64,000 nt of DNA from Gemmatimonadota bacterium (GTDB lineage Bacteria > Gemmatimonadota > Gemmatimonadetes > Longimicrobiales > Gaopeijiaceae). Positions within the stretch are counted from its first letter, which is position 1. Each line of letters starts with the position of its first letter. The stretch lies in assembly GCA_022822325.1 (NCBI GenBank), contig JAJEBW010000024.1, positions 62,001 through 126,000 of the forward strand, read 5' to 3'. A program made the position numbers and the translations under genes. The notes under the pieces were generated by a model, which had not been told where the DNA came from, did no database searches, and saw only the letters and a list, made by a program, of their open reading frames with translations. Of the stretch, positions 11,146 through 29,208 are shown in pieces.

Positions 11146-11655
11146 ATGCGAACCCAATCGCCGATCGCCGATCCGCACCGCCCCCTGACTCGCACGGCCG
11201 CGCGCACCCTTGCAGTCCTTCTCACGGCCTTCGCTGCCGCGCTGACCGCGGTTCCTCCGCTGCAAGCCCAGGACGCGGACGGCAGCGTCTTCCACCGCGG
11301 CGACTCCCTGCCCTGGGGCGAACCGGCCAATGGCATGCGCGTTCTGTCGCTCTACGGCGATCCCTACCAGGAGGGCGAGTCCTTCGCCTTTCGCCTCGAG
11401 GTTCAGTCGGGCTTCGAGATGGGCCCCCACACCCACCCCATCACCGAACACCTGACCGTTCTCTCGGGTCGGTTTTTCGTCGGAATTGGCGAAACCATGG
11501 ACAGGGAGGCGGCAACCGGATATGGTCCGGGAAGCTACCTCGCGATCGAAGCCGGAGTTCCCGCCTTCATGTGGGCCGAGGAGGAGACGGTTGTGCAGGT
11601 GCATGGGGTGGGGCCGCTGGTGACCGTATACATTGAGCTCCCGCCATGCCGATGA
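11146..11655 (+). CDS. Exported cupin-domain protein
   Basis: A 169-residue protein with a signal peptide (residues 1-42, ending LQAQ) and a single cupin barrel. The first cupin motif holds metal ligands in GPHTHPITEH and a following LSGRFFVGIGE strand; the second is weaker (IEAGVPAFMWAEE, VQVHGVGP). Small exported cupins bind a metal and may be isomerases, dioxygenases or sensors; no substrate is evident. The stop overlaps the next gene by 10 bases. Confidence 0.85.
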   Translation: MRTQSPIADPHRPLTRTAARTLAVLLTAFAAALTAVPPLQAQDADGSVFHRGDSLPWGEPANGMRVLSLYGDPYQEGESFAFRLEVQSGFEMGPHTHPITEHLTVLSGRFFVGIGETMDREAATGYGPGSYLAIEAGVPAFMWAEEETVVQVHGVGPLVTVYIELPPCR

Positions 11656-12167
11656 CCCTTCCCATGCGTCGCGCCGTCGCGCTTCTGGCACTTGTTGCCG
11701 GGGGCTGCATTCCGTCGGAAGAGGGCGCCCTGCAACGCGGCGATCCCGCGCCGGCCTTCACCGCCGCCTCGCTGGAGGACCGGTCGCCCGTCGCCCTCGC
11801 CGACTACCACGGCAACGTCCTGCTTGTCAACCTCTGGGCCACCTGGTGCCACCCCTGCCGCGCCGAGACGCCCTACCTCCAATCGCTGTACGAGCGCTAC
11901 CGGGACCGTGGTCTGCGCATCCTGGGAGTCTCGGTGGACATGGCGGCGGATTCCGGCCTGGTCGCGGAGTTCGTGCACGAGATGGGGGTCGAATACGACA
12001 TCGCCCTTGACCCCGACGCCTGGTCCGAGGACGTCTTCCGTGCGCGCGGCCTCCCGACATCGGTGGTCATCGACCGCGCCGGCCGCGTGGCCTTCAGTTG
12101 GATCGGGCCGATTCCGGAAGACGATCCGACCTTCGTGGAGGGGCTGGAGGGGGTGCTGGGGCGGTAG
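11646..12167 (+). CDS. TlpA/ResA-like thioredoxin-fold lipoprotein
   Basis: A 173-residue protein with lipobox LVAGGC (Cys about 21) and a thioredoxin fold. The active site is WATWCHPC within LLVNLWATWCHPCRAE. VSVDMAADS and LPTSVVIDRAGRV match the AhpC/TSA-TlpA family, including the cis-proline. It probably reduces disulfides of exported proteins or apocytochromes c, which suits a region rich in c-type cytochromes. It overlaps the cupin gene by 10 bases and is presumably translated with it. Confidence 0.93.
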   Translation: MPMTLPMRRAVALLALVAGGCIPSEEGALQRGDPAPAFTAASLEDRSPVALADYHGNVLLVNLWATWCHPCRAETPYLQSLYERYRDRGLRILGVSVDMAADSGLVAEFVHEMGVEYDIALDPDAWSEDVFRARGLPTSVVIDRAGRVAFSWIGPIPEDDPTFVEGLEGVLGR

Positions 12168-12209
12168 GGGGGGCAGGAAGAGACCTCCAGAATGACGCCA
12201 CGGGGGGTC

Positions 12210-15005
12210 TCAGGTGCGACGGACTGTTCCAGCGGCGTCCTTGACGGTCTCAGAGATCATTTTGGGACCACTGCCCCAGCAGGAGCGCCGGGGGCCATCC
12301 CACGCTTGCCGGATCGCGCGGCCGAGATGGGTTCGCATGAAAGGCTGGATCACGAGCGCGTCGCACCTCTTCATCTCGTTCCTGATTTCCGACAACTTTC
12401 GCTTCCAGTTCTGCTTCCAGTCAGTTCGAACGAAGCTCACCCTGATGGACTGGACATGGTCCCTCAGTTCGTCGTGCACCTGCTCCTCGCTTGCCCCCAA
12501 TTCCGCGCCAACGACGAGGACTCTGACCACAGCAGGCGCTTCCGTTGTTGACGCTGTTGCCGCATCGCCCATCCGAGCGGACAGTGCGTCATACCTGTTC
12601 GTCATGTCCGCGTAGATGTCAGGGTCCGTTCCGTAGCCGCGAACTTTTTCAAGCACACCAGCCGCGTCGGTCAACCTCTCCTCGGTGACGAGACGGTGAA
12701 AGAGGTCCCGTAGTACACCGACTGCCTTCGTGAGGTCGCCACGAGCTTCGTGGAATCGGGCACGGGCGACAATTACGTCCTCATATTCCCAAGACGCGTC
12801 GTAGACTCTTTCGTTCTCAAGCAGATTGAGAAAAGTCGATGTCGCCACGTTGGCCCGTGCCAACCCCTCAAGCCTGTCCAGCACTTCTCCCGCTGCCTCG
12901 GAGTTGCCCCGCCCGAGGAAGCCGTGAAACGCGGCCCGAAAGTCCTTTGCCCGAGCATTGGGAAGTCTACCCGTGTCTTTGGCGCGCTCCCACAGCTTGT
13001 CGGCCAGCCAGCGGCGAAGATGCAGCCCGGAATCGTTCCAGACGAGCTCATCAAGCGCCGCATCTCCTGTTTCGGCAATTGCCTGCGTGATCTTCTTGAG
13101 ATCCGCCTCGACTCCCTTCAGCCCAAATGCTTCTGTTGTCGGGTTGATCAGGTAGTGCGGTATGCGGGCTCCGCTGGCCAGGGCTTCGGTGATGACATCG
13201 GCCGCATGAGCAAGCTTGTCTGCCGAGAATTCCTGGGCTTTGGCGATGCCAAAGTACAGGTTGGCATGGCTGACGAGGTCTTTGCGGTAGGAATCACTGT
13301 CTTCCGAAAAGTGATTACGGGCTTGCTGAAGGTGCATTTCGGCGGCCTCGAATACTTGGTCTTCAACGGCCCGGCCAAGCGCCAGCACGCCAAGGCAGTA
13401 GTGACTGTGGGCCGAGTATCGACCCTGGAGGTCCCTGGATCTAACGAAATGGCCCTTGCCTCGTTCGAGCCTCTCCAGCATCCCGTCGAGCTCGTCTTTG
13501 CTCGGCGGAAGGATGACCTCTTCCAACCCATCGAATCCCCCAGCCATCAACCCGAGGTCTGCGTGAATCATCGCGAGATACTTGGGATCGGATTCCAGTT
13601 CGAGGAGTTCCTCCAGCCTCCGCCGTGCTCGATCATGGAAATGCAACTGCCTGAGGCAGTGAGCCCTTCGGCGGTGGGCATCAAGCAGCCGGCGGTCCGT
13701 CGGAGAGACACCGCTCCTCTCAAGCGCGTCCCGGGCATTCATCAGCGTTTCCAGAATCGGCAGTGCCTTCCGGGCGCTGCCCTTGTCGAGAAGCTCTGTG
13801 GCAACCTCAAGCAACTGTCCAAAGAGAAGGAGGCGGGGCTGACCCAAGAGCGTCCGAACGTTCACGAAATCTGCGATCTCCGCAGCCCGGCCCCCACGAT
13901 GCAGCGCCTCTGAAATATGCCTGACCGCAGCCACGGAAGCTGCGTCAGAACCGTTGCCCAGCTCCTGGACTACGGGATGGTTTTCGTACTCTCTGACAAT
14001 GCGGTCCCAGCGTTGGCCACGGGCCCATCCCTGTATCGCGCCGGTCCAATACCAACGAAGCCGGGCCGCGTTTTCGGCGGGCAGCTCCTCTGCGATCGGA
14101 TTGTCGAATAGAACATCGCGAAAACCGGCATGAAAATACGACTTGTGTCGTCGTCCGTTGAGCGCGATCACTTCGCCCACCAGGTCATCCAGATCCATGG
14201 GACTCAGGGCCCCCTCGACGTTCTCGGCCGAATCGACCGCCGCGTAGATCAAGACGCGATCCAGCGTTGTGAAGGAGGGCTGGCGCGACGGGTCTTCCCT
14301 TTCTGTCTGCCTCTCTTCCGCGGTCGGTGTCGTATCTTCGGGTTCGGATGGCAGTGGCAGCGAGGCGAGGTCTTTGTTGTCCGCGGGCTCCGCCAGCAAC
14401 TCCATGAGGAGCGTACGGGCCCGTTCTCCCACCGGTGCACGATACAGACACAGGGTCAGGACGTATGTTGCCACACGCTCTGCATGGTACTTTCTCAAGA
14501 GTCTGGCGACACCCGTCCTCACGGCATCGTCGCTTCCGTCAATCGCTGTGTAGGACTCGGTTATCCCCTCGCGGTGAGAGACTCCAAGGGCATCCAGAAA
14601 ATCAACCACCATCGTGCGCTGCCCGGGGATGTGGTGGCATTCCAGCAAGCGTGCTGCTACCCGGTGGTCTGGCAGTGGTACCCTGCAAAGCGCCTCGCAA
14701 ACCTGGTCGGTCGACCAACTGCTGACGGTCTTCGGTCGATAGTGCCGCGCATTGGCAATAATGCCGTTCAGTCCACGGCGAGCCGTCTCTTCCGAGTCCA
14801 GAAGGGCTCTTGTGGCCTCCCGCTTTTCGTCGTCGGAAAGGGCGTCCCACAGCCTGACTGATCCCAACCGCTTCGGATCCGCGACGAGCTGCCTCAGCGG
14901 GACAGAAAGTCCCGTGCGTTGGCCGATGGGAGAGTCCGACCTGCCCATACTCTGTTTGCGAACCATCCCCTGCATTCCTTTTTGCGACTGTCGCACTCCT
15001 GCCAC
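12210..15005 (-). CDS. Large TPR-like helical repeat protein with C-terminal DUF2325-like Rossmann domain
   Basis: A 931-residue protein not assigned to a characterised family. Residues about 20-230 are helical and unfamiliar (PLRQLVADPKRL, LWDALSDDEKREA). A charged Glu/Pro/Thr linker lies near 235-265. Residues about 270-820 read as a TPR-like solenoid (ARRRLEELLEL, AEMHLQQARNHF, VIVARARFHEA). The last 110 residues start with VRVLVVGAELG and continue RCDALVIQPF and LGRAIRQAW, resembling DUF2325-type nucleotide-fold modules. Local base composition is clearly lower in GC than the neighbours and codon use is relaxed, suggesting transfer. Alternative ATGs lie at 14975, 14966 and 14948. A broken vapC lies just upstream. 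A defence or stress-sensing role is only a guess. Confidence 0.7.
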   Translation of the reverse strand: MAGVRQSQKGMQGMVRKQSMGRSDSPIGQRTGLSVPLRQLVADPKRLGSVRLWDALSDDEKREATRALLDSEETARRGLNGIIANARHYRPKTVSSWSTDQVCEALCRVPLPDHRVAARLLECHHIPGQRTMVVDFLDALGVSHREGITESYTAIDGSDDAVRTGVARLLRKYHAERVATYVLTLCLYRAPVGERARTLLMELLAEPADNKDLASLPLPSEPEDTTPTAEERQTEREDPSRQPSFTTLDRVLIYAAVDSAENVEGALSPMDLDDLVGEVIALNGRRHKSYFHAGFRDVLFDNPIAEELPAENAARLRWYWTGAIQGWARGQRWDRIVREYENHPVVQELGNGSDAASVAAVRHISEALHRGGRAAEIADFVNVRTLLGQPRLLLFGQLLEVATELLDKGSARKALPILETLMNARDALERSGVSPTDRRLLDAHRRRAHCLRQLHFHDRARRRLEELLELESDPKYLAMIHADLGLMAGGFDGLEEVILPPSKDELDGMLERLERGKGHFVRSRDLQGRYSAHSHYCLGVLALGRAVEDQVFEAAEMHLQQARNHFSEDSDSYRKDLVSHANLYFGIAKAQEFSADKLAHAADVITEALASGARIPHYLINPTTEAFGLKGVEADLKKITQAIAETGDAALDELVWNDSGLHLRRWLADKLWERAKDTGRLPNARAKDFRAAFHGFLGRGNSEAAGEVLDRLEGLARANVATSTFLNLLENERVYDASWEYEDVIVARARFHEARGDLTKAVGVLRDLFHRLVTEERLTDAAGVLEKVRGYGTDPDIYADMTNRYDALSARMGDAATASTTEAPAVVRVLVVGAELGASEEQVHDELRDHVQSIRVSFVRTDWKQNWKRKLSEIRNEMKRCDALVIQPFMRTHLGRAIRQAWDGPRRSCWGSGPKMISETVKDAAGTVRRT

Positions 15006-15198
15006 CGCAAATTCAAACCTAAGCCCACTGCACGCTGTAGCTTGCGATCAAGAGTAACCAGCGACAAGCCGAGTGTTTCCGCGATGGCGACGTACCAAGC
15101 ATCGCAGGGGCTCACAGTATCCATTCGGCCCACAACCCGTTGGCATCCGAACTAATCGGCCCACCAACCACCCCCGAGCCATCAACGACCACCGTCAC
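14894..15198 (-). pseudogene. Broken vapC-like PIN-domain toxin gene
   Basis: Two pieces of a PIN domain lie in different frames. The N-terminal piece starts at a GTG (15198): VTVVVDGSGVVGG...GLWAEWIL, then a stop near 15112. The C-terminal piece continues about 20 bases away in another frame with SPCDAWYVAIAETLG and LVTLDRKLQRA, the conserved YxxIAE and LxTxD segments. The middle of the domain (about 65-75 residues with the second and third acidic residues) is absent, so an internal deletion plus frame change is inferred. The remnant overlaps the start of the repeat protein. No VapB antitoxin is visible. Confidence 0.65.
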
Positions 15199-15659
15199 TG
15201 GGATCCGCGTCGGGTGCGGCGAGAATCGTGCTGACTGGGACGCGGGCTCCAGTAACCCTCCCTGCGTTCCCGCATCGATTCCATTCCCGTCCAACCGATG
15301 GCCGACTGGCAATCCGTCCAGGCTTGCGCCGCAGATGCTCCTGCACCGCTCCCCGCCGCCTTACCGTGATCGCATCCCGCCGGAAGCTCCCGCGTTCGGT
15401 CGGCCCTCCGGTCCCCTCCCTCGTCTTCCTCACCCAACCCCTTCCCTACCTCCCGCGCCCGCCGCCGCAACCACGCCCCCGTCCCGAGCACCAGCCCGAA
15501 GGGCAGCAGCGTCAGCAGTCCCGCGGTCGCGAGAAAGGCGACCCTGGCTTCGTCGTCGCGATCGAAACAGACGGGGCAGGCGTGGGCGGGCTCGGCGAAG
15601 AGCGCTGTGCCAACGATGGCGACCAGAGCCAGCGCCAGGATTCCGCTGCGTCGGCTCAT
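15195..15659 (-). CDS. Small exported/membrane protein at the end of the oxidase operon
   Basis: GGAGG six bases before the ATG at 15659 fixes the start. The protein has a signal peptide (ILALALVAIVGTALFAEPAHA), a CPVCFDRDDEAR segment right after it, one transmembrane helix (LTLLPFGLVLGTGAW) and a basic RRRAREV stretch. Such small CPVC-containing proteins are plausible accessory factors of the oxidase. From about residue 85 on the sequence becomes low-complexity and tail-like (to residue 154), so the natural C-terminus may have been replaced where the neighbouring lower-GC insert joins. The assignment to the cox operon is by position only. Confidence 0.65.
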   Translation of the reverse strand: MSRRSGILALALVAIVGTALFAEPAHACPVCFDRDDEARVAFLATAGLLTLLPFGLVLGTGAWLRRRAREVGKGLGEEDEGGDRRADRTRELPAGCDHGKAAGSGAGASAAQAWTDCQSAIGWTGMESMRERREGYWSPRPSQHDSRRTRRGSQ

Positions 15660-15821: not shown

Positions 15822-16493
15822 CTACAGGTAGACCTGAATGTAGAGGAAGGGCCAGACGAGCACCACAAAGTACCAGAAGAGCGCCACCGTGGAAATGGCC
15901 TCGCCCGTCAGCCGTTCGCGGAGCAGTTGCGCCACCGCCCACACGAGCACCCCGATCGCGACGACCGCGTGCAGGGCGTGCGCGCCGATGATCGTGTAGA
16001 AGAGCGCGCCGTAGGTGGAGGATGTGAGGGTGAGGCCTTCGCGGATGAGCGCGACCCACTCGACTCCCTGAAGCGCCACGAAAGTGCCGCCGAGGAGGGT
16101 GGCGGCTGCAAGGAGGAGGGCGACGCCGGGTGAGGCGGGGAGGGGGGAGGGGGGAGGGGGTTGGGAAGCCGGGGAGCCGCGAGAAAGCTTCGCTTTCGCC
16201 GCGGCGAGCGCCCGCAGATGCATGCGCTGGGCGATCAGAAGAAGGACGCCGCTTGCGATGAGGGCGGCCGTGTTGACCGCGGTCTCCTCGAAGGGGAGGC
16301 GGGGCTGGTTGGGCGGGGGCCAAACCGAACCGATCGCGCGCGACCGAATGATCACGAAGGCCGAAATGAAGCCCGCGAAGAGCATGACCTCGACGAAGAC
16401 GAAGAGGAGCATGCCCAGCACGCCATTCGACACCAGCTTCCGCCGCCGCTCGGGGCGAGGCCGAAAGGGGAGGATCGTCGTGTGAGCGGTCAC
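15822..16493 (-). CDS. Heme-copper oxidase subunit III-like protein (second copy)
   Basis: A 223-residue protein with five or six membrane helices. It has SNGVLGMLLFVFVEVMLFAGF, ALQGVEWVALIREG and YTIIGAHALHAVVAIG, the latter matching the conserved GxHxxHxxxG region of subunit III. A Pro/Ser-rich loop near residues 108-122 separates the helices. It ends with YFVVLVWPFLYIQVYL. A second, more typical subunit III is encoded two genes upstream, so this copy may be part of the same oxidase or an assembly paralogue. Confidence 0.85.
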   Translation of the reverse strand: MTAHTTILPFRPRPERRRKLVSNGVLGMLLFVFVEVMLFAGFISAFVIIRSRAIGSVWPPPNQPRLPFEETAVNTAALIASGVLLLIAQRMHLRALAAAKAKLSRGSPASQPPPPSPLPASPGVALLLAAATLLGGTFVALQGVEWVALIREGLTLTSSTYGALFYTIIGAHALHAVVAIGVLVWAVAQLLRERLTGEAISTVALFWYFVVLVWPFLYIQVYL

Positions 16494-26925: not shown

Positions 26926-27321
26926 ATGACCGCTCGGAACCTGACAGCCTTCGGAATCGCCTTCGTCGCCGTGGCGCTGGGCGCGTTCGCCGGGTGCAAC
27001 GACTGGACAATGCCCGCCGCCGATCCGACCGCCGAGGCCGATCCGGAACTGGTGGCGCTCCGCGGCCAGCTCGAAACGCTGGTCGCCGAACAGGGGCAGA
27101 TCAGCCGGACGATAGCACGGGAGAGAGTTGTGCAAGAAAAATGGCGTGAAGAACGCCACGCCATCTGGGTGTGTACAGCGGAGCGTCCTTGCCCAGTGTT
27201 AAGCTACCATTGGCCTCCCTTGTGGGAAGCTCGGTCGGCAATCTACCAGAACAGCTTGGAGATCAAAGCCGTGAAGGCGCAGATCGCCGATCGGGAAGCG
27301 GCTTTGGCGGAGAGAAAGTGA
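26926..27321 (+). CDS. Small coiled-coil lipoprotein, first of a small-gene operon
   Basis: A 131-residue protein with AGGAG upstream of the ATG. The leader AFVAVALGAFAGC ends in a probable lipid cysteine (residue 24). The mature part has two predicted helices (VALRGQLETLVAEQGQI and EIKAVKAQIADREAALAER) flanking a Cys/Trp-containing stretch (WVCTAERPCPVLSYHWPP). I know no family. Its GTGA overlap with the next short gene, and lower GC than the surroundings, tie it to the downstream small ORFs. Confidence 0.65.
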   Translation: MTARNLTAFGIAFVAVALGAFAGCNDWTMPAADPTAEADPELVALRGQLETLVAEQGQISRTIARERVVQEKWREERHAIWVCTAERPCPVLSYHWPPLWEARSAIYQNSLEIKAVKAQIADREAALAERK

Positions 27322-27470
27322 GAATACTCGTTACGGCGGTATTTTCAGCTTCCTGCTTTCTGAGCGCGTTCCCTTCGTCGTCCAGCGGCCAGCAAACGGA
27401 ACAAACGCCCCGAAGCTGGGATCAAGGGTTCGACTCCGCAGACTGCACGATTCACGGGAGGCTAACATGA
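27318..27470 (+). CDS. Short secreted peptide (50 aa)
   Basis: A GTG start overlaps the previous stop (GTGA). The product begins with a signal peptide (ILVTAVFSASCFLSAFPSSSSGQ) and leaves a mature part of about 27 residues with WDQGFDSADCTIHG. Too short for family recognition. The overlap at both ends is the main support. Confidence 0.5.
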   Translation: MRILVTAVFSASCFLSAFPSSSSGQQTEQTPRSWDQGFDSADCTIHGRLT

Positions 27471-27580
27471 CCGCTGCCCACGAGATGCCCACAATCACGA
27501 TGACCAGGACGGAGTCAGGGGGATTCGCCGTTGACCCGTCCGCAGTGACTGATCTGGAGTTCCCCGTCCGGCTGGATTAA
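27467..27580 (+). CDS. Short peptide gene (37 aa)
   Basis: ATG at 27467 overlaps the previous stop (ATGA) and has a strong ribosome site GGGAGG six bases upstream. The peptide is polar, with TITMTRTESGGFAVDP in the middle and no signal or membrane segment. The good ribosome site and precise overlap argue that it is translated; function unknown. Confidence 0.5.
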   Translation: MTAAHEMPTITMTRTESGGFAVDPSAVTDLEFPVRLD

Positions 27581-27596
27581 GTCACCGGACGGGAAC

Positions 27597-27788
27597 ATGG
27601 TATCCGAGCAGGTGGTTCACCGTCCCTCTCCGCGACAGGCCGAGGGTGAAGCAGATGCAATAGAAGGATTCCGTAAGGTGGTAAGCAAGACACGGGACAA
27701 AGCAGTCAACAAGGAGCGATACGACCGTTTCCTGCAGAAACTCGCGAAACACGAAGAACTTGTACGACAACGTGAGAAGAGGAAATGA
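27597..27788 (+). CDS. Small basic coiled-coil protein (63 aa)
   Basis: Starts at ATG 27597 after GACGGGAAC. The protein is highly charged; residues about 20-63 form one long helix (GFRKVVSKTRDKAVNKER, then FLQKLAKHEELVRQREKRK). It may bind nucleic acid or a partner protein, but no family is recognised. Its stop overlaps the next ATG (ATGA). Confidence 0.55.
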   Translation: MVSEQVVHRPSPRQAEGEADAIEGFRKVVSKTRDKAVNKERYDRFLQKLAKHEELVRQREKRK

Positions 27789-27964
27789 CTGTGCAAGCGA
27801 TCAAATCAACCGCCACCACACTCATGTCGGTGTGGGTACTCACGACCGGGCCCATGGACGTGAAGATTGCGCCGGAAGTCACCTTTTCATTCCCGTCGCA
27901 TTCCATATCGGCATGTGCGGCGGCGCCAGATCGCCCCCGGACGTCCTGCAAGCCTCCGGCGTAG
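27785..27964 (+). CDS. Small protein (59 aa), last of the small-gene chain
   Basis: ATG at 27785 overlaps the previous stop (ATGA). The peptide has a weakly hydrophobic start (TATTLMSVWVLTTGP) and a Cys/Pro-rich end (SACAAAPDRPRTSCKPPA). Evidence is the overlap and low-GC context only. Confidence 0.4.
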   Translation: MTVQAIKSTATTLMSVWVLTTGPMDVKIAPEVTFSFPSHSISACAAAPDRPRTSCKPPA

Positions 27965-28146
27965 TCTTGCCATCGTTCGGCTCGCGCAAGGGGTTGCGGA
28001 GGCCCTGCAGCGACCCGCGACGGACTCGTAGAAGCTGCGGTCGCGGCCGATCCGGAGTGAGTTTCGGCCCGTTTCGGCACGGGTACGCCTGCTGCAGAGC
28101 GGGGCACCGTGCGGGATCCGACAGCGCTACACGCCGAGGCCGTCCC
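27965..28146. other. Spacer between convergent genes
   Basis: No gene or clear terminator seen; GC rises back to the genome norm here. Confidence 0.3.
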
Positions 28147-29208
28147 TCAGAAAACGTCCAGGTCCGCCGCCGAGACCACCCTTCCCCCGTACCCCGCCTC
28201 GCGAACTTCGCGCAGCAGATCCTCGTCGGTTGCGCCCCAATAAAGCTGGTGATACATGACCAGGAGCCCGGGTCGCGCCCGCGCGGCGATATCGGCCAGC
28301 TCCACCGTCGAGGTGTGCGATGCGGCGTGGTAGCGCTGCCAAATCGACGGCCGTGTCAGGAACGCCTCCGCCGAATAGACCTCGTGGACAAGGATGTCGC
28401 AGCCGTCGCAGGCCTCCACCAGAGACTCGGAGGGGCGCGCGTCGCCCGAAATCACGATTGTGCGCGCGACGGAGCCATCGGGGGCCAGTGCCTCGAAGCG
28501 GTAGCCGAGCGGATGCGGCCAGGATCCGTGCAGAACCGGAATCGCCGTGACCCGCACATTGTCGTCCTCGTAGATGGGGCCGCCGGTGGTCTCGACGACC
28601 GGGGACTGCCAGGCGTCCAGGTTGTAGTCGTGCGGTTCGAGCCCGAAGAGCCGGTTGTGGACATCTTCGCGCCAGGCCTCCTGAATGTGGTGAACCATGT
28701 TGGTGGTGCCGGGCGGGCCGAAGATGCGGATCGGATCCAGGCGCTCCAGCACCCATGGCGAGAAGATCACATCCGGGAGGCCCACGGTGTGGTCGGAGTG
28801 GAGATGGGTGATGAAGAGACGGTCGAGACGGGCGGGTTCCAGCGCGGCCAGCTCATGCCGGGCGGCGGCCGCGGCCGCGCGGCGCACGATGCCGGGGCCG
28901 GAATCGACAAGGTAGGCCTGGCCGCCCGCCACGACGGCCAGCGCCGGGCCGGAGCGGTCGGGATCGGCGTTGGGCGTTCCGGTACCAAGAATGACGAGGC
29001 GGGCGGCGGCCGTGTCGGGCAAGGGCTGCGCCTGTCGGAGATGGGCGGCCTCGGCGAGGGCGGGCTCCGGGCGGCCGCGGCCGGTCCCGCGCACCGGCTG
29101 CGCGCCCGATCCGGAAGAAAAGACGAGTGCGCCACCGACCGGTATGCCGACGACCAGAGCACCGGTGGCGGAGATCAGCGCAAGAGCGAGGACGAAAGAT
29201 CGTTTCAT
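28147..29208 (-). CDS. Exported metallo-beta-lactamase-fold hydrolase (RNase Z/arylsulfatase-like)
   Basis: A 353-residue protein with a signal peptide (FVLALALISATGALVVG). The MBL core begins LVILGTGTPNADPDRSGP, typical of the RNase Z/AtsA branch. Metal ligands are THLHSDHTVG, ISGDARPSE (Asp), DILVHEVYS and TSTVELADIA, ending MYHQLYWG. Exported members of this branch act on sulfate esters, phosphodiesters or lactones rather than tRNA. Monocistronic and divergent from the serine hydrolase genes. Confidence 0.9.
   Translation of the reverse strand: MKRSFVLALALISATGALVVGIPVGGALVFSSGSGAQPVRGTGRGRPEPALAEAAHLRQAQPLPDTAAARLVILGTGTPNADPDRSGPALAVVAGGQAYLVDSGPGIVRRAAAAAARHELAALEPARLDRLFITHLHSDHTVGLPDVIFSPWVLERLDPIRIFGPPGTTNMVHHIQEAWREDVHNRLFGLEPHDYNLDAWQSPVVETTGGPIYEDDNVRVTAIPVLHGSWPHPLGYRFEALAPDGSVARTIVISGDARPSESLVEACDGCDILVHEVYSAEAFLTRPSIWQRYHAASHTSTVELADIAARARPGLLVMYHQLYWGATDEDLLREVREAGYGGRVVSAADLDVF

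Follow-up and report, generated by a model that had tools for sequence, protein, structure and literature searches.

The 64,000-nucleotide stretch of DNA that was analysed (the window) carries a 931-codon open reading frame (ORF) on the minus strand (12210..15005), and the question raised by this locus is whether the encoded protein belongs to an undescribed bacterial conflict system. The ORF was delimited by using an ORF scan and homologues. Its position and length were as the original prediction had given them, with an open frame free of internal stops, and it is present in a single copy in the window genome. The start codon is uncertain. The GTG start is doubtful given that residues 1-31, which overlap a vapC remnant, were modelled at a pLDDT of less than 50, and in-frame ATG codons are found at residues 11, 14, and 20. 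As predicted, the ORF is located between the end of a cytochrome-oxidase operon and tlpA, adjoins a broken vapC, and lies in a segment of lower GC. GC content was 0.603 for the ORF versus 0.678 for the left and 0.675 for the right flank, so that its composition differs from the flanks, and a scan of GC and codon use gave z-scores of −2.9 for GC and −1.9 for GC3 (calculated against 34 crudely called window genes). A second GC dip (GC 0.59-0.63) was observed in the window at 27001-28500, similar to that of the segment described below.

The cytochrome-oxidase gene and tlpA were found on one contig in 16 genomes of the genus. Seven of these have the two genes 242-302 bp apart, two have them at distances of 542 and 681 bp, and in the other seven, which include the window, they are separated by 1.85-6.2 kb. 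The fixed flanks in the window are a tlpA-like gene on the left (11646..12167, plus strand) and the last large gene of the cytochrome-oxidase operon on the right (15822..16493, minus strand), with a small CPVCFDR gene between the latter and the insertion. Alignments of the window flanks to the empty slots of relatives end near 15390-15451 and 12150-12170. In six of the seven empty-slot relatives, the distance between these alignments is 0-64 bp, and in the other (G001) the right-hand alignment ends sooner. Given that the flanks abut in the empty slots, approximately 3.26 kb (12170..15430, GC 0.608) were inserted in the window. The inserted segment also contains vapC, in which a PIN match is confined to the last third of the domain (positions 89-117 of PF01850, E 0.0011). 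This C-terminal part (14894..15133, minus strand) overlaps the ORF start, and a short N-terminal PIN-like piece (VTVVVDGSGVVGG..., 15115..15198, minus strand) was recognized by eye against the intact PIN gene at the same place in relative G021; the gene is thus broken, as originally described.

Slot contents differed among relatives. The slot of G021 holds PIN, AAA_21, and DUF4276-like genes together with a homologue of the 931-residue protein, and that of G007 holds PIN and AAA_21 genes plus a small gene, with no more of the homologue than its 29 C-terminal residues. Another gene and a homologue were found in G018, HEPN in G020, and a PIN-like gene (by eye) in G009. For G022, in which tlpA is on another contig, the cytochrome side carries vapB-like, PIN, nucleotidyltransferase, and HEPN-like genes. 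The slot is therefore a hotspot for toxin-antitoxin and related cargo, in agreement with the vapC remnant in the window. The combination of PIN, an AAA_21 ATPase, and a small gene (DUF4276-like or unnamed) in the slot, at L025:6662-9012 and L085:3942-6411, is a candidate for a separate two-gene defence pair.

The protein had been called an orphan, a description overturned by protein and profile searches. A protein search of 59 genomes recovered homologues within the genus at 46-54% identity (about 30-54% for homologues overall), and profile searches covering the class (about 394 genomes) and the phylum (395) recovered copies that are full-length or nearly so in about 22 genomes from three taxonomic families. 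Presence was patchy, with a homologue in 9 of 23 genomes of the genus (comparison genomes were mostly draft assemblies with crude gene calls). The searches reached across the phylum of the window and one metagenomic contig from elsewhere; this contig (L002, labelled as a Saccharibacteria MAG, GC 0.58) carries a truncated homologue that lacks the N-domain described below, was the single homologue outside the phylum, and may be mis-binned. Pairwise dN/dS among homologues was 0.17-0.28, and the family is under purifying selection. On the tree, family f4 requires at least three changes. Near-identical copies were found in different families (99.8% and 99.2%); given the shortness of the contigs, these were not taken to prove transfer. 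In one subfamily, a stretch of about 7 kb with a phage integrase is common to three genomes and 93.5-99% identical (L026:9052-16721, L027:5635-12362, and L030:88-7746). It comprises the homologue, an unnamed 227-aa gene, and one to two tyrosine recombinase genes, and is probably a mobile element. Collections of phages, plasmids, and viral contigs gave no match to the family, nor did PHROGs, and an origin in a phage, plasmid, or viral contig was set aside for want of any such match.

The protein is not covered by any family in Pfam, NCBIfam, PADLOC, or PHROG, no PADLOC-DB 2.0 model matches it at E 10, and PDB sequence searches returned no useful match. Its only Pfam match, to TPR, is sub-threshold. 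The architecture was therefore described from a full-length AlphaFold model (pLDDT 83, generated by using an alignment of 23 homologues), with all parts on the minus strand. Residues 35-205 (14391..14903) form a helical domain (N-domain) with a pLDDT of mostly 80-92 and with profile matches; it has no Pfam match, in keeping with the predicted helical N-terminus unlike known families. A low-confidence linker follows (residues 207-237, 14295..14387, pLDDT below 50), then a TPR solenoid (residues 247-815, 12561..14267) and a Rossmann-like, DUF2325-like C-domain (residues 826-930, 12216..12530), the latter assigned by using AlphaFold, fold matches, and sub-threshold DUF2325 matches. The long TPR-like solenoid of the original prediction was confirmed, as TPR-type helical hairpin repeats that form a superhelix. 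Pfam TPR models match 12 of the 23 homologues (best E 1.3e-6), and the modelled solenoid resembles the solved TPR superhelices of OGT, LGN, and Rap proteins (VIA Z 12-14, which for repeat proteins denotes a common arrangement and not a function).

In the full-length model, the C-domain (there residues 827-930) has four strands in the order b-a-b-a-b-a-b-a; modelled alone, it reached a pLDDT of 90. Its fold matches are generic Rossmann- or flavodoxin-like proteins (PTS IIB, lobes of periplasmic binding proteins, type II dehydroquinase), and a comparison with viral structures gave one better match, to an unnamed 271-aa protein (A0A8D4GMA3, E 1.2e-4). The proposed likeness to DUF2325 (PF10087) is weak. 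It was supported by the fold, by collinearity, and by sub-threshold matches in 3 of 16 homologue C-domains (best E 0.0054), and not by the window protein itself, which has no PF10087 match above the curated Pfam cut-off. Alignment of the C-domain profile to one single DUF2325 sequence using hhalign was collinear, at a non-significant probability of 3.9, and a plasmid search for DUF2325 sequences gave one chance match. Both share the four-stranded Rossmann-like order and a VxxVGGD-like first loop; in contrast to DUF2325, the present family falls below the curated cut-off, has its own invariant motifs (GW..NW, RT..GR..R, and C..G), and carries the domain in fusion with the TPR part and the N-domain. 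The residues that are invariant or almost so are W863, N866, W867, R891, T892, G895, R896, R899, C909, and G913. Read off the secondary-structure string of the AlphaFold model, these are predicted to lie in or beside the loops after strands, where such folds bind ligands. The literature consulted on DUF2325 yielded neither this three-part architecture nor a known function. A 534-aa protein with a coiled coil and a C-terminal DUF2325 was observed in another genome of the family (G127, L086:211-1815), the sole DUF2325 match among 101 genomes.

Full-length homologues do not belong to a conserved housekeeping operon and were often found beside restriction or toxin-antitoxin genes; with the differing base composition, the refuting conditions set for the original interpretation thus came out in its favour. 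The L002 homologue adjoins GmrSD, HsdM, HsdS, and an OLD-like ATPase, and that of L022 adjoins a PD-(D/E)XK gene (PDDEXK_4) and a pair of GmrSD-type genes, of which one was tested. Further neighbours are type III Mod and Res (L031), DUF499 (L029), an MrfA-like helicase and HsdR (L075), NOV_C (L072), and AAA_15/21 (L071). At about half of the distinct loci no recognizable defence neighbour was found (by eye, on crude gene calls). When 89 neighbours were scanned with PADLOC, 301 models matched, with the DUF262 class foremost, versus 98 models for an equal number of genes (89) drawn from control regions in some of these genomes; given that PADLOC models overlap heavily, these numbers give a direction and not a p-value. 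Across the homologue loci there was no constant partner gene, and no constant metabolic or stress neighbour either. The original proposal of an undescribed system is therefore supported in part: the protein is undescribed, in that no family in Pfam, NCBIfam, PADLOC, or PHROG contains it, and a multi-gene system was not upheld, as no neighbour is constant.

The reading that we prefer, at slightly under even odds (roughly 0.47), is a horizontally moving single-gene accessory protein that most likely acts in conflict, against phages or other mobile elements. Because the gene was inserted where relatives swap toxin-antitoxin and conflict genes, it is probably a mobile accessory gene and possibly an immune one, and without a constant neighbour, single-gene action is likelier than a multi-gene system. 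The company of the homologues points to conflict biology, and the architecture suggests ligand sensing by the TPR part coupled to a small ligand-binding or catalytic C-domain. We infer the defence role from genomic context; sensing, docking, activation, and C-domain chemistry are proposals. In such a mechanism, the TPR solenoid would bind a ligand, namely a protein or peptide of foreign origin or linked to stress, and the helical N-domain would dock the protein to a host partner. Ligand binding would then release or activate the DUF2325-like C-domain as a small ligand-binding or catalytic module. Counted in favour were the hotspot insertion, the restriction neighbours, the PADLOC excess, the integrase stretch, the patchiness, the selection, and the invariant residues. 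Counted against were the roughly half of loci with no defence neighbour, the failure to match phage, plasmid, viral, or PADLOC entries, the generic fold matches of the C-domain, which point to no effector chemistry, the want of a constant partner, and the crudeness of the PADLOC comparison.

The same loci with no defence neighbour would also fit a mobile accessory protein whose TPR part serves as a scaffold or regulator outside immunity, as in stress or redox signalling, and which lands in variable regions alongside defence genes but takes no part in defence. TPR and Rossmann-like domains are generic. In the one report found, a 104-residue DUF2325 protein has been tied to oxidative stress in Campylobacter (PMC9426514), so that stress signalling stays a possible reading. 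Set against this are the hotspot contents, the repeated restriction neighbours, and the finding that no metabolic or stress gene is a constant neighbour, and we regard a non-immune scaffold as rather unlikely.

The main multi-gene alternative is the AAA_21/DUF4276-like association seen in G021, G007, and G097, in which the protein would be the third subunit of an ATPase system and the window gene would have been orphaned after loss of the other two. The four G021 genes are co-directional (PIN, AAA_21, DUF4276-like, homologue) and the last two overlap by 4 bases; in G007 an AAA_21 gene is accompanied by just the last 29 residues of the homologue, and in G097 the homologue is followed by an AAA_15/21 gene. 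The AAA_21 protein also resembles defence ATPases, below the cut-off. This arrangement is improbable, given that most homologues have no such adjoining ATPase, that the order and type of the ATPase differ between G021 and G097, and that the DUF4276 match is sub-threshold (E 0.0073). Decay of the window copy into a functionless remnant of an otherwise functional family, to which the adjoining broken vapC, an end branch of 0.62 (versus 0.22 for the nearest relative), and the loss of W906 and of the GGxE motif in the first loop of the C-domain might point, is doubtful in view of the open frame over 931 codons, a pairwise dN/dS of about 0.19 to relatives (with dS near saturation), and three domains each still 39-61% identical to the nearest homologue.

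The N-domain extends beyond the proposed mobile conflict gene. It is the only widespread part: over 60 additional genomes have it, in most cases as a separate protein of about 165 residues. In one family of the class, most genomes carry this stand-alone protein, which has no Pfam or NCBIfam model (four tested examples had no Pfam match). In two inspected genomes, this protein (about 160 aa there) is convergent with ffh, which was named by eye from sequence (L082:8516-9007 and L083:8012-8494). Membership of the full-length protein in a housekeeping operon was rejected, given that solely the stand-alone N-domain adjoins ffh. In a distant genome from another family of the order (L034:8865-15515), a 2217-aa unnamed ORF starts with the N-domain, has an AAA (STAND-like) domain near residue 1526, and is possibly a giant conflict protein.

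By analogy, the closest described idea for this shared N-terminal domain appears to be the effector-associated-domain (EAD) conflict systems, which are defined by a second N-domain copy on a partner protein (Kaur et al. 2020, PMC7159879). Common to both are TPR superstructures and an N-terminal domain on otherwise different large proteins (here the TPR protein and the AAA protein of L034). In contrast to EAD systems, the window genome (94% complete) gave a single N-domain match and thus no second copy on a partner, and no vWA or MoxR genes were seen adjoining. NLR-like/STAND sensors with TPR (e.g., LypB, PMC13236601) share a long TPR solenoid as a possible sensor; unlike these, the present family has no NTPase domain, as Pfam scans of 23 members found no P-loop family and the model consists of a helical solenoid with a Rossmann-like end. 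Peptide sensors of the Rap/NprR type share the TPR helical solenoid, at the Z range given above, whereas the 931-residue protein is much longer and has other terminal domains. A bolder proposal, which we consider a long shot, is a new class of single-protein immune receptor. In it, the N-domain, known also as the conserved stand-alone protein of this class of bacteria, would have been joined here to a TPR sensor with a DUF2325-like effector and, independently, to a giant AAA protein, and would serve as a decoy or adaptor for a host component under attack by invaders.

For an unclassified mobile family of proteins about 930-1,060 residues long, the analysis has defined domains, a hotspot proven by empty sites, and a predicted defence role. 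The family shares a helical domain that has no name with a conserved, core-like protein. Were the preferred reading correct, a possible effector role would follow for the widespread DUF2325-like fold.
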